38,139 bases of DNA from an uncultured Oscillospiraceae bacterium (GTDB taxonomy: Bacteria; Bacillota; Clostridia; Oscillospirales; Oscillospiraceae). The notes under the pieces were generated by a model. That model was not told the DNA's origin. It saw nothing but the letters and a program-made list of their open reading frames with translations, and searched no databases. The stretch is taken from contig CAJOPB010000030.1 in assembly GCA_905236305.1 (NCBI GenBank), forward strand, positions 1 to 38,139, given 5' to 3'. Shown here one piece after another: positions 17,511-25,556 of this stretch (the stretch's first letter is position 1; every line of letters begins with the position of its first letter). The position numbers and the translations under genes were made by a program.

Positions 17511-17790
17511 GTCAAAGAGCTCCTGTCACATTCTTATGATGCTGTTTCCCGGCGGGAACAGAAAAATAAAACGAGAAGGGAACCTCTCCCACTCATTTGC
17601 CGTTGTTGCTGCCCAGTATAACAAAGAAAAGCGGAAAAAGCAACCTTGCTTTCTCCCGTGTCTCCCGCAGGAAAGGGCGTGCGCGTGTACGGCGTGCAGC
17701 TGCTGCAGTTCAGACGCCTCGAAATCAGAATTGTAACATTCATTGTGCATTGAGCACGGCAGTGTATCGTCCGGGGGAGACAGGAAAACG

Positions 17791-17829
17791 CCCGCCCCAC
17801 AGCGCCTGCAAAAGCAGGTGTGGGGCGGG
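17791..17829 (-). terminator. Terminator after the flotillin gene
   Basis: CCCGCCCCACA...TGTGGGGCGGG with inner CCTGC-AAAA-GCAGG; minus strand continues CGTTTTCC. Confidence 0.75.
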
Positions 17830-17895: not shown

Positions 17896-19392
17896 TTATT
17901 CCTCCGGTCCTTCCGGCTGTGTCTCGTCTGTGCCGCTCTGGGTGCCGGGGTTCTGAATTTGAATGACTGCAGGAGCTGCGCTGCCGGCTGCGGCTTTTCC
18001 GCCCAGAGCGCCGAGCAGCAATGCGCGGATGTCCAAACCCATGCCCTGGGTGAAGCCCTCGGTTATCTGTGTGGTACCGTTGATAATATCCTGGAGCAGC
18101 CGGGCGCTGTTGCCCTCTCCGTACATGGTGATGTGATCCACCTTGCTCAGAGGCTCAGCCACATTTTTAGCGATCTCGGGAAGGGCCTGCATCACCATTT
18201 CGATGACGGCGGCTTCTCCGTATTTTTTCATGGCCTCTGCCTTACGGTCAATACCCTCTGCCTCTGCCAGCGCCTTGGCACGGATGGCCTCTGCCTCGGC
18301 CTTACCTACGGCAGAGATACCGGCGGCCTCCTGCTCCCGCGCATATTTTGCCGCTTCAGCGGCTTTCTTCTGAGCCTCGGCCGCCTGCTCCTGCTCATAG
18401 CGCAGGGCCTCCGCGTCTTTCTGCCGGCGAAACAGATCCGCCTGGGCCACCTGCTCCTGGCGGTAGCGCTCCGCATCCGCCTGGGCGCGGATGTCGGCGT
18501 CCAGCTTCTGCTTTGCTACCTCTACCTCCTGGCGCTTCAGCTCCGCTTCCCGTTCTGCACGGGCAATCTGTGCGTTGACGGTGGTGGTCTCAATGCTCTT
18601 TTGCTGGGCCTGCTTTTGAATCTCGTAGGCCGCGTCCGCCTCGGCCTGCTTGGTGTCGGCTGTGATCTTCAGCTCGCTCTGGCGCACAGCCAACTCCGTA
18701 TTTTTCTGGGCAATCTCTGTATCCGCGCGGACCCGTGCCTCGTTGGCGGCCTTGTCGGCCTCTGCCTGGGCAATCGCCACATCCCGGTTGGCCTGGGCCT
18801 TGGCTATGGCGGCATTTTTCTTGATGAGACTGGTGTTGTCCGCGCCCAGGTCCCGGATCAGACCGTTTTCATCGGTGACATTCTGAATGTTGCAGGACAA
18901 AATCTCGATGCCCAGCTTATCCATGTCCTTGCTGGCCTTCATCATCACCTGATCCGAGAAGGAGTCCCGGTCGGTGTTGATCTCCTTGAGACTCAGCGTG
19001 CCGATGATCTCACGCATATTACCCTGGAGGGAGTCCTGCAGATCCAGGGTAATGGCGTCCGCCTTTTTGTTCAAAAAGTTCTTTGCCGCCAGCTTGATGC
19101 CCTCGGGCGTGGGGGAGATGCGCACCTTTGCCACAGCGTCCACATTGACATTGATGAAATCATTGGTGGGTACAGACTGCTCCGTCTTGATGTCCACGGT
19201 CATCTGGCCCAGGTAGAGCTTATCCAGCCGCTCAAAGAAGGGGACCTTGACACCAGCCCGTCCGATCAGAATACGGGCCTCCCGCTTCATACCGGAGATG
19301 ATGTAGGCGTGGTCCGGCGGAGCTTTTACATAACCGATCAAAACCAGCAAAATGACGGCGACCGCGACAATACCAATTGCGAAATAGGGCAT
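17896..19392 (-). CDS. Flotillin family protein
   Basis: N-terminal TM hairpin, PHB/SPFH domain (VDIKTEQSVPTNDFINVNVDAVAKVRI), long AE-rich coiled coil, C-terminal QALPEIAKNVAEPLSKVDHITMYGEG. Confidence 0.95.
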   Translation of the reverse strand: MPYFAIGIVAVAVILLVLIGYVKAPPDHAYIISGMKREARILIGRAGVKVPFFERLDKLYLGQMTVDIKTEQSVPTNDFINVNVDAVAKVRISPTPEGIKLAAKNFLNKKADAITLDLQDSLQGNMREIIGTLSLKEINTDRDSFSDQVMMKASKDMDKLGIEILSCNIQNVTDENGLIRDLGADNTSLIKKNAAIAKAQANRDVAIAQAEADKAANEARVRADTEIAQKNTELAVRQSELKITADTKQAEADAAYEIQKQAQQKSIETTTVNAQIARAEREAELKRQEVEVAKQKLDADIRAQADAERYRQEQVAQADLFRRQKDAEALRYEQEQAAEAQKKAAEAAKYAREQEAAGISAVGKAEAEAIRAKALAEAEGIDRKAEAMKKYGEAAVIEMVMQALPEIAKNVAEPLSKVDHITMYGEGNSARLLQDIINGTTQITEGFTQGMGLDIRALLLGALGGKAAAGSAAPAVIQIQNPGTQSGTDETQPEGPEE

Positions 19393-19523
19393 GGGGATAC
19401 CTCCTTATTTATAACTCTCTTTAGGTAATTGTGAAGCTCGCGTCCACGGCCGGACTGAATGCAATTTGTTTTCACTGCGGCTATGCCGCGGCAAAACCGC
19501 CCCATTATGCAGGGCAAAGGTTT

Positions 19524-20225
19524 TCAACTCATTGTATCACATCCGCGGACGCTTTCAAAGTCCAAAAATCTCCTCCCCTGAAACCGGAGCCTGCCACGGT
19601 CGCCTTCCTCGATGCGGCCATAGGCATCGCCGCTGACATGCAGCTCCAAGCGGTCTCCGCTCTCCACCTGAAACGTGATATAGTACGTGGTGGAGCTCAG
19701 GGATGCCGGAGTATCTATATACCGGCACGGAGAAACATTGTTGCGTTTTTTCACCACCACGGCGTCCACCGCAAGACGCGGTGCGCCGCTGCTTCTCCGC
19801 GCGGCAAGATCGCGGATGAGCCCCCAAAGCGCAAGTCCGATGACTGCGGCGGCTCCAAGCGCGAGCGTCAGCTTCAGTGGCAGGGCAAAGCCGCTTTGTG
19901 CACCCAGGGGATGCTCCTCCGCGCCGGGAAAAAGCACGGCCCGGCAAAGCCCGGCGACAAAGAGCAATGCGGCTGCGAGCCCTGCAGCACGCCGCAGTAT
20001 TGCCCGCGCGCCGGAATGCATTTTTCGCCTGAAATGCGCGTCGAATTCCTTCTGACATTTTTCCTCCAGCGTGTCGGGATAGAAAAAATCCGCGTCGCTG
20101 TTGAGCCGCATGGCTTCGCCCCGCAGCCTTGCCTGCTCAATGCCGAGATACTCCTCCATCAGGATCGAGAGGCCCGCCTCGTCCAACTGTTCGCGGGCAT
20201 CGTCACATGGCTGTTCCGGCTTCAA
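19524..20225 (-). CDS. Two-TM protein with C-terminal DUF2500-like domain; candidate anti-sigma factor
   Basis: TTG start in a TTGA overlap with the sigma stop, AGGAGG inside the sigma 3' end; two hydrophobic segments; C-terminal STTYYITFQVESGDRLELHVSGDAYGRIEEGDRGRLRFQGRRFLDFE. Confidence 0.75.
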   Translation of the reverse strand: MKPEQPCDDAREQLDEAGLSILMEEYLGIEQARLRGEAMRLNSDADFFYPDTLEEKCQKEFDAHFRRKMHSGARAILRRAAGLAAALLFVAGLCRAVLFPGAEEHPLGAQSGFALPLKLTLALGAAAVIGLALWGLIRDLAARRSSGAPRLAVDAVVVKKRNNVSPCRYIDTPASLSSTTYYITFQVESGDRLELHVSGDAYGRIEEGDRGRLRFQGRRFLDFESVRGCDTMS

Positions 20226-20806
20226 GTTGACTTCCTCCTTTCCGCGAGAAGCAGTTGTTTTGCCCGCCTGCGGGCACGGGACAGCAGTCCGCGCACACTG
20301 GAGCGCTTGCAGCCCAGCACTACGGCCAGTGCCGCGTCATCCATGCTGTAAAGATAGCGCCCTTCGAGAAGCAGTCGCTCCGCCTCTGTCAGAGAGGGCC
20401 AGATTTGCGACAGATGGTAGTCCGGCAGATGGGAGAGGAACTCCTCCTCTGCGCCGGGAGCCGCTGCTGTAAGCTCCCGTGCGTCGTAGGCTGCCTCTGT
20501 CTTTCTGTCCCGTTCCTGTTTCCTGTGCCAGTCATAGGCAGCGCTGCGAACGGTGAAGATAATATAATTGACCTGGGCGCCCTCTGGCATGGCGTGGAGC
20601 TTTGGCAGCCGCCGGAGCAGCCGGAGCCAGGTCTCCTGAGCCACATCCTCCGCTGCAACTGCATCTCCTGTGAAGGAAACGGCCTTTGCCAGTACCAGAC
20701 GCTTATAGCTCTGATAGAGTGCCATGAAGAATTGCTTTTCCTGCTCCGGGTCCCGGCAGTGGGTATCGTAAAGCTGCAAGCCGTGTTCCCTCCCTTCCGC
20801 TGACAT
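20222..20806 (-). CDS. ECF-type RNA polymerase sigma factor
   Basis: FTGDAVAAEDVAQETWLRLLRRLPKL (region 2); WPSLTEAERLLLEGRYLYSMDDAALAVVLGCKRSSVRGLLSRARRRAKQLL (region 4). Confidence 0.92.
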   Translation of the reverse strand: MSAEGREHGLQLYDTHCRDPEQEKQFFMALYQSYKRLVLAKAVSFTGDAVAAEDVAQETWLRLLRRLPKLHAMPEGAQVNYIIFTVRSAAYDWHRKQERDRKTEAAYDARELTAAAPGAEEEFLSHLPDYHLSQIWPSLTEAERLLLEGRYLYSMDDAALAVVLGCKRSSVRGLLSRARRRAKQLLLAERRKST

Positions 20807-20953
20807 CTCTATAACGATTGGCAGAGGAAAAATGCAACAGCCTTTGACAATTTTTTGCGCACTAAGCTGCTATGTGTGGTATACTGTAAAGAAGAAAAAG
20901 GCCCCACCGTGGAAGGATCATCCCGGAGGCGCCTGTGAGAGGAGTGAGGAACC

Positions 20954-21640
20954 GTGCTGCTGGTTGCCGCCGCTGTGATTCCCGCTGTGTTTTTGATGGT
21001 CCGCGTTTATCGTGCGGACCGTCTGGAAAAAGAGCCGATTGGTCTGCTTCTGACACTGATTCTTTTGGGAATTATATCCACCCTGCTGGCCTCCATCACG
21101 GAATGGGTAGGAGAGAATCTGCTGGAGCTGCTGCTGCCGGCAGATGGCTTGCTGTATGCGCTGCTCCTGAATTTTGTGGTGGTGGGGCTGTCCGAGGAGG
21201 GGTTTAAGTATCTGGTGCTCAAGCGGAGGACATGGCGTTCCCCGGAGTTTAACTGTCAGTTTGACGGGGTGGTCTATGCGGTTTTTGTCTCTTTGGGCTT
21301 TGCACTTTGGGAAAATTTGGGATATGTTGCCGCCTACGGCATGGAGACCGCTTTGGCCCGCGCGGTGACAGCGGTGCCGGGACACGCCTGCTTCGGTGTG
21401 TTTATGGGCGTGTGGTATGGCATCGCGCGGCGCTGGGAGCTGTATGGCGAGTCCCATCTCTCCAAGCGGGCGCGCAGAGCTGCAGTGGTCGTGCCTACGC
21501 TGCTCCATGGCTTTTATGATTTTATCGCCTCCATGGAGCGGGACTGGTTTGTACTGGTTTTCCTGGTCTTTGTGCTGCTGCTGTTTATCACGGCAATGCG
21601 TCTGGTGCGGCGGCTGTCAAAGGATGACCATTATCTGTAA
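20954..21640 (+). CDS. PrsW family intramembrane metalloprotease
   Basis: Multiple TM segments; VVVGLSEEGFKYLVLK (EExxK), ENLGYVAAYG, PGHACFGVFMGVWYG, LLHGFYDF motifs; GTG start. Confidence 0.92.
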   Translation: MLLVAAAVIPAVFLMVRVYRADRLEKEPIGLLLTLILLGIISTLLASITEWVGENLLELLLPADGLLYALLLNFVVVGLSEEGFKYLVLKRRTWRSPEFNCQFDGVVYAVFVSLGFALWENLGYVAAYGMETALARAVTAVPGHACFGVFMGVWYGIARRWELYGESHLSKRARRAAVVVPTLLHGFYDFIASMERDWFVLVFLVFVLLLFITAMRLVRRLSKDDHYL

Positions 21641-23061: not shown

Positions 23062-23201
23062 AGTGTCTCCTTCCTTTCTGCATGTCTTTATGCTGTCAGA
23101 TCATCCTTGATCTTTAATCATTTATCGGCAGATTTTTCCGGTAATTAATAAGTCACCGGTACACTTTTTGTTCTTTTTCTCCCTTCAGCCTGAAAACGGT
23201 T

Positions 23202-23234
23202 TTATAGTCAACGACCCAAATGTCGTGACTATAA
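23202..23234. repeat. Inverted repeat with one bulge in an AT-rich intergenic region
   Basis: TTATAGTC(A)ACGAC-CCAAAT-GTCGT-GACTATAA. Confidence 0.75.
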
Positions 23235-23288
23235 TTTCATTTTAGCCGTCATTTTCCGCCGCAGAGCGGCGATAACATGACATGGAAA

Positions 23289-23326
23289 CTATAGTAAACG
23301 GCAAATTTTTTTTCGTTTACTTATAG
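23289..23326. repeat. Second inverted repeat, just 3' of the radical SAM gene
   Basis: CTATAGTAAACG ... CGTTTAC(T)TATAG with a T-rich loop. Confidence 0.7.
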
Positions 23327-23343: not shown

Positions 23344-24171
23344 TCAGCAGTTCCCGGTATACACATACTCCAGATTTTCTCTGGCCAGTGCTGCCAGCCG
23401 GTAGATTCGTTCCACCGGCGTAGGAGGACGGTCCCGCAGATGATAGCGGGGGAAAAACCGGGACAGGTGCAATGGAATATCCCGCCGGAGAGAGGCAATC
23501 CAGCGCGACAGAGCCTGTACCTCATCCTCGCTGTCGTTCTCACCGGTTACCAGCAGCGTTGTGATCTCCACATGACAGGAATCCGCGGCAAGGGCGATTG
23601 CCCGCTTCACTGTCTCCAGGTCGCCTCCCAGCCGGCGGTACCAGTCCGCAGAAAAACCCTTGAGGTCGATATTGGCCGCGTGGATCCGGGGAAGCAGCCG
23701 TTTCCAGGGCTCCTCACAGATGCTGCCGTTGGTTACCAGCACATTGACCATGCCCCGTGCCTGCACCGCGCCGGCAGTGTCCATTACGTATTCATAACCC
23801 ACCAGAGGCTCGTTATAGGTATAGGCCACGCCGATGTTTCCCCGGGGCTTCTGCGTCTCAGCCAGTTCAGCCAATGCCTCCGGGGACAATTGATCCTCGG
23901 CCATATTCGTTCCGTCCGCCATGGATATTTCGGAATTCTGACAGAAGGGGCAGCGGAGATTGCAGCCAAAGCTGCCTACAGAAAGCACCTTACTGCCGGG
24001 GAAAAAGCGGCGCAGGGGTTTTTTCTCAATCGGGTCCAGAGCGAGCGCGGTAACCCGTCCGTAATTCAGCGGTACAATCGCCCCATCCCGGTTGACACGG
24101 GCACGGCAAAAGCCAGCCTGTCCTTCCCGCAGCACACAGCGGTGAAAGCACAGCTCGCAGCTTTGGCTCAT
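23344..24171 (-). CDS. amrS: AmmeMemoRadiSam system radical SAM enzyme
   Basis: N-terminal CELCFHRCVLREGQAGFC; radical SAM SFGCNLRCPFCQN (CxxxCxxC); GVAYTYNEPLVGYEYVMDTA; NIDLKGFSADWYR; HLSRFFPRYHL. Confidence 0.94.
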   Translation of the reverse strand: MSQSCELCFHRCVLREGQAGFCRARVNRDGAIVPLNYGRVTALALDPIEKKPLRRFFPGSKVLSVGSFGCNLRCPFCQNSEISMADGTNMAEDQLSPEALAELAETQKPRGNIGVAYTYNEPLVGYEYVMDTAGAVQARGMVNVLVTNGSICEEPWKRLLPRIHAANIDLKGFSADWYRRLGGDLETVKRAIALAADSCHVEITTLLVTGENDSEDEVQALSRWIASLRRDIPLHLSRFFPRYHLRDRPPTPVERIYRLAALARENLEYVYTGNC

Positions 24172-25556
24172 CTGTGACGCACCACCTCAAAGCGCTCCAG
24201 GGTGTATTTCTCCTGTTCCCCGATGCCGCCCTTCTGCCGGGCAATGGCAATCTGTTCCTCCACAGTGTCCACACCATCAAGGTCCGGCAGCAGCAGTCCG
24301 CGCCGTTGTCCGCATGTGACAATCACCCCATAGCGCCTGACGTCCAGCGCAGCGGGGGAGGCGATGCGCTCCGGCGGGCGCAGCACATCCACGTTGTATT
24401 CCAGAGTATCCAGCTCCGATGCTCTGACCGGAGGGAACCGGGGATCGTGGGCTCCGGCAGAGACGGCATTCTGCACGATCTCTGCCGCCAGACTGGGAGT
24501 CGTGGGCCCGATGGTTCCGATACAGCCCCGGAGCTGTCCCTCCTGATGCAGAGAAACAAAGGCTCCGGCGCGGCTCTGCGTCAGCTCCTCCGGCAAATCC
24601 TCGGGAATCGCGGTCAGACGCTTTCCCGTCCGGACAAAGGTCTCCAGGGAGAGCCGCGCCAGTGCTGTATAGGCGTCCTCCCCGGCTTTTTGCCGGGCAA
24701 GCCGCGCCTGCTCCGCCGCGGCGTACTGTTTGCCGAAGCAGCGGCCTTCATCCTTCCCGGTTACCGAAAATACCGCCACTCCATAGCCTACGCCAAAGGG
24801 CCCTTCGTGGCTCAGCAGCTGTGGTGAAACCGCCAGCCCGTCCAGCGCTCCGGCCATGATCTGAAAGGAACGCTGGCCGCATTCCGCAGCCCGCTCACAG
24901 AGCCTGCTTTCCATGGACAACAGCCGGAGAAAATCCCCGTCCGCCATGGCCGCAGTTACGGCACGGTCGTATTCCGGCCCCTCGGGGACAAAGCCATAGG
25001 GCCCGTCCTCCTTCAGCTTGTGGCTCAAATCGCCGCTCGCGATAAAGACCGCACGGCGGCCCAGCGCCTCCGCTGCCTCCGCTGCGCACTGGCCCAGACG
25101 GTAGTGGGTCAGCGGCGAGAGGCCGGACAGGCCGATGCGCACCACGGGGCAGTCCACTCCTGCCTCCCGCAAAAACCACAGCGGAATAAAGCTCCCGTGA
25201 TCCAGCCGCGGGTCCCGCTGGCCCCGGGTTCCTGCAGGGATGCACGCAGCCTGTGCCCGCTCAATGAGCGCGCGCCGCAGCTCCTGGTCATAGTCCACGC
25301 GCAATTGCGCCTGCGGCGCACGGAAAAAGGACATGTCTCCTGCGGCGAACTCCCCCGGCGCAATGTGAAAATAGTCCGAGTACATCACCAGATGGGGTGA
25401 TGAGAGAATCAGGACCTCCGGCCTCCATTCCGCCACCTGCCGGGCAGCGGCACGATAGGCGTCGACGGTGGCCTGAATTTTCTGTTCCTCCCCTCTGCCC
25501 ACTGCGGGGATAATCAGCGGAGGATGCGGAACAACGACAGAACCCAGAATCGGCAT
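24168..25556 (-). CDS. LigB/Memo-like extradiol-dioxygenase-fold domain fused to a C-terminal AMMECR1 domain
   Basis: N-terminal half: VVVPHPPLIIP, ILSSPHLVMYSDYF, LDHGSFIPLWFL, FIASGDLSHKL. C-terminal half: GAFVSLHQEGQLRGCIGTIGPTTPSLAAEIVQNAVSAGAHDPRFPPVRASELDTLEYNVDVL, QRRGLLLPDLDGVDTVEEQIAIARQKGGI (AMMECR1). Confidence 0.93.
   Translation of the reverse strand: MPILGSVVVPHPPLIIPAVGRGEEQKIQATVDAYRAAARQVAEWRPEVLILSSPHLVMYSDYFHIAPGEFAAGDMSFFRAPQAQLRVDYDQELRRALIERAQAACIPAGTRGQRDPRLDHGSFIPLWFLREAGVDCPVVRIGLSGLSPLTHYRLGQCAAEAAEALGRRAVFIASGDLSHKLKEDGPYGFVPEGPEYDRAVTAAMADGDFLRLLSMESRLCERAAECGQRSFQIMAGALDGLAVSPQLLSHEGPFGVGYGVAVFSVTGKDEGRCFGKQYAAAEQARLARQKAGEDAYTALARLSLETFVRTGKRLTAIPEDLPEELTQSRAGAFVSLHQEGQLRGCIGTIGPTTPSLAAEIVQNAVSAGAHDPRFPPVRASELDTLEYNVDVLRPPERIASPAALDVRRYGVIVTCGQRRGLLLPDLDGVDTVEEQIAIARQKGGIGEQEKYTLERFEVVRHR

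Follow-up and report, generated by a model that had tools for sequence, protein, structure and literature searches.

In the SigW-RsiW-PrsW-RasP system of Bacillus subtilis, RsiW, the membrane partner of an extracytoplasmic function (ECF) sigma factor, is cut by the protease PrsW, and yuaF-yuaG(floT)-yuaI, with its flotillin gene, belongs to the core sigma-W regulon (PMC3498285). The cytosolic domain of Staphylococcus aureus NfeD, which is of the oligonucleotide/oligosaccharide-binding (OB)-fold-like kind, binds flotillin and stabilises flotillin oligomers (PMC11222466); YuaF-YuaG is the Bacillus counterpart of this arrangement (PMC2636767). Here we consider a window of 38,139 nt (the whole stretch of DNA analysed, to which all coordinates refer) from contig CAJOPB010000030.1 of an uncultured Oscillospiraceae bacterium (assembly GCA_905236305.1), in which genes for an ECF sigma factor, a membrane partner with a DUF2500 domain, a flotillin and a PrsW-family protease lie together.

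The likeness to the B. subtilis system is plain: an ECF sigma factor whose membrane partner is encoded beside it, with genes for a PrsW-family protease and a flotillin close by. It led a first-pass annotation, whose four genes are all real and lie where it placed them, to propose a sigma-W-like circuit. The window differs, however, in that its partner has two transmembrane (TM) segments, a predicted cytoplasmic C-terminal domain and no HxxxCxxC zinc motif, in that the adjacency of PrsW is not conserved, and in that the flotillin appears to have a housekeeping-like promoter of its own. We tentatively favour another reading, with a rough probability of 0.45: that this is an ECF/anti-sigma pair whose chimeric anti-sigma factor carries DUF2500 as a cytoplasmic module that docks on flotillin much as NfeD does, so that sigma release would depend on flotillin scaffolds. 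It is built on the computed pairing, modular homology, predicted topology and flotillin/DUF2500 neighbourhood.

The sigma factor and its membrane partner

The features of the pair are as follows.

20222..20806, minus strand: ECF sigma factor, 194 aa (Pfam Sigma70_r2, E=1.3e-13; TIGR02937 above cut-off)
20234..20239, minus strand: AGGAGG ribosome-binding site of the putative anti-sigma gene, within the sigma gene (from the sequence)
20222..20225, minus strand: TTGA overlap, joining the TTG start of the putative anti-sigma gene and the TGA stop of the sigma gene (from the sequence)
19524..20225, minus strand: putative anti-sigma factor, 233 aa, with N-terminal module, two TM segments and DUF2500
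19986..20201, minus strand: putative cytoplasmic sigma-partner (anti-sigma) module, about residues 9-80, the profile match (E=7.3e-15) reaching residue 99
19929..19985, minus strand: TM segment 1, residues 81-99, predicted to run from inside to outside (hydropathy 2.16; six lysines or arginines (K/R) before, none after)
19872..19928, minus strand: predicted extracytoplasmic loop, residues 100-118
19815..19871, minus strand: TM segment 2, residues 119-137, predicted to run from outside to inside (hydropathy 2.22; four K/R after)
19551..19787, minus strand: soluble DUF2500 domain, residues 147-225, five-stranded and barrel-like, predicted cytoplasmic (PF10694, E=1.6e-24; AlphaFold2; Foldseek)

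The sigma factor scores 69.5 bits with TIGR02937 (cut-off 42.9) and, having regions 2 and 4 only and a length within the ~160-200 aa of the class, is of the ECF type (sigma-70 group 4), though its region 4 match (E=9e-5) falls slightly under that model's own cut-off. The partner gene is translationally coupled to it, as first annotated, through the 4-nt overlap and the AGGAGG that stands 8 nt before the TTG start, inside the sigma gene.

Of particular weight is the conservation of this pairing. The nearest relatives of the sigma factor, 33-40% identical, were fetched with the sigma protein, independently of the module search below, and 27 of the 28 have an adjacent gene encoding the N-terminal module; 24 of these genes are on the same strand and overlap or lie within 16 nt, and three are divergent. 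Conserved adjacency had been named beforehand as a test of the proposed circuit, and for sigma factor and partner it holds. In a search of 401 family genomes, residues 8-100 of the partner matched longer proteins, with open frames mostly of 240-290 aa, most of them encoded beside ECF sigma genes and, where tested, mostly ending in DUF4367. A profile of 14 such DUF4367-type partners, from which the window protein was excluded, matches it over residues 9-99 (E=7.3e-15); at E up to 10 it hits none of the window's other open reading frames. The module alone, run against 60 relatives, matched only itself, and the wider family search was needed; a scan of viral contigs for the module gave no relative. 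The window pair thus shares with the clostridial ECF sigma/DUF4367 pairs (L062-L076, L213-L239) a homologous sigma factor, a homologous N-terminal module with TM segment 1, and overlapping genes. Those partners have a single TM segment and then DUF4367, whereas the window partner has a second TM segment and DUF2500 in its place.

The first-pass annotation took the DUF2500 protein for an anti-sigma factor. The module and coupling common to these relatives bear this out: judged by its architecture, the protein encoded at 19524..20225 is very probably one. Its two hydrophobic segments and missing HxxxCxxC motif were also read correctly. That motif is not obligatory in the class I anti-sigma domain (ASDI, the RsiW kind), about half of the class being without it (PMC7406223). 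When a class I four-helix domain was looked for, the AlphaFold2 model gave N-terminal helices at residues 16-43 and 52-98, at low confidence, and a profile of the partner found nothing significant in the PDB and no match among solved anti-sigma structures. These last results, with the missing zinc motif and the lack of any characterised member of the module family in the open literature searched, would suit a partner that is a membrane-bound activator or scaffold of the sigma factor instead of its inhibitor. We consider this very improbable: an overlapping gene, an N-in membrane anchor and a variable C-terminus are the arrangement of known anti-sigma factors, and the missing domain match is not telling, since a class I domain is present in only ~36% of putative anti-sigma factors (PMC7406223). 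On the reading of the fusion suggested here, the module would be an anti-sigma domain widespread among clostridia, to which different C-termini can be joined.

Some other ECF sigma/membrane partner pairs were seen in passing. Two separate ones in a genome of the window's genus (L023 and L033, G002) are each followed by a type IV pilin-like gene (GFTLVELI...), and another (L148:9264-11365) follows a rubredoxin/rubrerythrin-like gene and adjoins a homologue of the window's gene for a 607-aa beta-propeller protein.

DUF2500 and a flotillin clade without NfeD

The C-terminal half of the partner had been called DUF2500-like, and the resemblance is real but understated: it scores 86.7 bits with PF10694, whose gathering score is 33.5 (E=1.6e-24; residues 126-224), and so is a full member. 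Free-standing DUF2500 proteins elsewhere are mostly ~115-140 aa long with one TM segment, and in 36 of 37 distinct copies K/R are commoner after that segment than before it (mean 2.8 vs. 0.4), which by the positive-inside rule places the DUF2500 domain in the cytoplasm. The topology predicted for the window partner agrees: N-terminus inside, TM segment at 81-99, loop at 100-118, TM segment at 119-137, and DUF2500 inside. The idea of DUF2500 as an extracytoplasmic sensor domain is therefore not borne out by the charge bias. In the AlphaFold2 model the domain is beta-beta-beta-alpha-beta-beta, with a predicted local distance difference test (pLDDT) score mostly of 70-94, and Foldseek returns solved DUF2500 structures first (3q6c, 3rd4), followed by weaker matches of the ribosomal S12 type. 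Ribosomal protein S12 is an OB-fold protein, and the modelled DUF2500 fold is compatible with an OB-like barrel. The window protein thus has in common with free-standing DUF2500 proteins (the YhhM type; PDB 3q6c, 3rd4, 2l0c) a TM segment followed by DUF2500, with the same predicted topology and fold; those proteins, unlike it, have no sigma-partner module. By sequence comparison the DUF2500 half looks like a transplant, a complete DUF2500 protein replacing the C-terminal module of a DUF4367-type partner. The G+C content of the two halves is even (0.596 and 0.583) and the conserved residues are intact, so that there is no sign of an assembly chimera. Misbinning of the contig was also considered and rejected: the contig appears to be in the right bin, its ClpB being 89% identical to that of a congener.

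Further DUF2500 variants were noted at G577:C2:22614-23120 (an alignment that begins at query residue 62) and at L018:418-1791, where DUF2500 genes stand in tandem (G042).

The flotillin gene lies on the same strand, 131 bp downstream of the partner gene, as first annotated.

17896..19392, minus strand: flotillin (SPFH2 type), 498 aa, of a clade without adjoining NfeD (PF01145, PF15975; neighbour comparison)
19531..19558, minus strand: predicted sigma-A-like promoter for flotillin, TTGAAA-N16-TACAAT with TG before the second hexamer (consensus scan, 10/12)
17785..17829, minus strand: strong GC-rich hairpin then TTTT, 3' of flotillin, a probable terminator (read from the sequence)

Its product scores above the cut-offs for Band_7 and Flot and below that of the FloT equivalog (269.7 vs. 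700 bits). Among 11 flotillins of the window type (50-77% identical) none has an NfeD-like neighbour, whereas for most other flotillins of the order an NfeD-like gene lies immediately upstream. Two other genera have a free-standing DUF2500 gene immediately 3' of a flotillin of this type: in G315 it begins 3 nt past a gene whose product is 76% identical to the flotillin of the window, and in G011 63 nt past one at 60% identity. By our rough estimate, the chance of such an adjacency is ~1 in 1000 per genome. On this comparison of loci, the presence of the flotillin beside the partner gene is better explained by a recurring association of DUF2500 genes with flotillins of its type. The arrangement recalls the NfeD-flotillin operons (FloA-NfeD, YuaF-YuaG), in which a membrane protein with a small cytosolic beta-barrel is encoded beside a flotillin. 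NfeD differs from the DUF2500 of the window in having several TM segments and a gene upstream of another flotillin clade, and in showing no detectable sequence similarity. We accordingly base the analogy on topology, kind of fold and gene context, and what we suggest is a similar role, not membership of one family.

From these likenesses we infer sigma binding, flotillin docking, a signal and a release step, as follows. The ECF sigma factor and the putative membrane-bound anti-sigma factor are encoded as a translationally coupled pair. The N-terminal module and TM segment 1 of the latter, presumably taken from the DUF4367-type sigma partners found in this family of bacteria, would keep the sigma factor at the membrane, and its second TM segment and cytoplasmic domain, in effect a complete DUF2500 protein, would dock on flotillin oligomers as the OB-fold of NfeD does. 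A changed state of flotillin or of the membrane domain would then alter docking, and the sigma factor might be released through a conformational change or proteolysis. A bolder version, which we hold with less assurance, is that the anti-sigma factor reads flotillin: with an NfeD-like docking module fused to an anti-sigma domain, transcription would respond to the assembly state of membrane microdomains as sensed in the cytoplasm, and no sensor outside it would be needed.

Several observations weigh against the docking proposal. The fusion was seen in a single species, in one incomplete genome, and a search of ~750 genomes from its family and order turned up no other fusion of module and DUF2500. 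Window-type flotillin and DUF2500 lie apart in 6 of the 8 other genomes that hold both, profiles of DUF2500 and NfeD-like proteins show no homology (hhalign probability 0.5%), and the N-terminal part of the partner model has pLDDT values of only 43-75. In the open literature searched we found no paper on the function of DUF2500 and none naming DUF4367, which is why inhibition by the partner is argued from architecture. A search for interaction between anti-sigma factors and flotillin likewise gave no relevant paper.

Some of this would fit an ordinary ECF/anti-sigma pair like those of clostridia with DUF4367 partners, in which DUF2500 has taken the place of DUF4367 as sensor or anchor for a different signal, probably one in the cytoplasm or membrane, and flotillin is a mere neighbour. 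Such a pair would equally account for the sigma/partner pairing and the module homology, and it would sit well with the encoding of DUF2500 apart from flotillin in most genomes and with the predicted promoter of the flotillin gene, an extended -10 promoter that overlaps the 3' end of the DUF2500 gene. It leaves to chance, at the odds estimated above, the DUF2500 genes that two other genera have directly 3' of this flotillin type, the one without NfeD. We regard it as a real possibility, if a doubtful one. Were the docking proposal true, DUF2500, which has solved structures and no function in the literature searched, would stand in for NfeD in a flotillin clade that lacks it, and a scaffold wired straight to a sigma factor would give a transcriptional read-out of microdomain state.

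In the canonical flotillin operons of the order, a DUF1836/MerR-like regulator gene recurs 5' of the NfeD-like gene and flotillin (L099, L101-L103, L106, L197, L200, L203, L207, L209 and L210; Pfam-confirmed in L101).

The divergent PrsW-family gene

20954..21640, plus strand: intramembrane protease of the PrsW family, 228 aa, encoded divergently and without conserved adjacency (PF13367, 115 bits)

This gene starts 147 bp from the sigma start, close to the 150 bp first given. Its product belongs to the PrsW family, by a PF13367 score of 115 bits against 23.5 and by intact catalytic motifs (EEGFK, FALWE and HGFYD, for EExxK / FxxxE / H); identification as PrsW proper goes too far, the score with the PrsW equivalog NF033739 being 129.8 bits against a cut-off of 225. 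According to the proposed sigma-W-like circuit, PrsW would make the site-1 cut in the DUF2500 anti-sigma factor, and the freed sigma factor would drive flotillin and prsW. The intact motifs, the divergent placement at 147 bp and the B. subtilis precedent of PrsW and RsiW with flotillin in the regulon (PMC3498285) all speak for it. The survey of loci does not. PrsW homologues are present in 73 of 351 family genomes, and around ~34 distinct loci holding them there is no ECF sigma gene (1.5 kb flanks; ~8 kb for several); conversely, no PrsW lies within ~3 kb of the DUF4367-type sigma/partner pairs. The conserved adjacency found for sigma factor and partner thus does not extend to PrsW, and its position here is most simply taken as coincidental, that of an unrelated neighbour. 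Topology points the same way. RsiW has an extracytoplasmic C-terminus that is cut by PrsW, while the window partner is predicted to have its C-terminus inside and only a loop of ~19 residues outside, a poor fit to cleavage of the RsiW type. Together the survey and the short loop lower the likelihood that PrsW cleaves the partner, and the role of dedicated protease given to it by the first-pass annotation is not supported. A motif scan found no ECF-type AAC...CGT pattern upstream of the sigma gene or of PrsW, and upstream of flotillin only chance-level matches. We consider the sigma-W-like circuit unlikely.

At one locus (L184:1495-3430) a PrsW homologue and, divergent from it, genes for a small membrane protein (judged NfeD-like by eye) and an SPFH (Band_7) protein stand 160 bp apart. 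This neighbourhood was set aside as chance, the SPFH gene being a different one, placed behind the small membrane-protein gene, and the locus one of ~34.

Congeners and other features of the window

In six congeners, no DUF2500 protein, flotillin or PrsW of the window kind was found at the thresholds used. The flanking genes are present in them, and only distant paralogues of the sigma factor were seen, in one congener. In an empty-site comparison (insertion vs. loss) the congeners' flanking genes lay on separate, rearranged contigs.

An Rfam scan of 15-24.5 kb gave no match. An interspersed repeat of ~127 bp with strong hairpins (23200-23326; fold z=-5.6; no Rfam match) has ~30 further matches, at 75-95% identity, on other contigs of the same genome and none in the six congeners. 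Beyond it, at 23344-25556, a radical SAM gene overlaps a LigB-AMMECR1 fusion gene, a set of the AmmeMemoRadiSam type.

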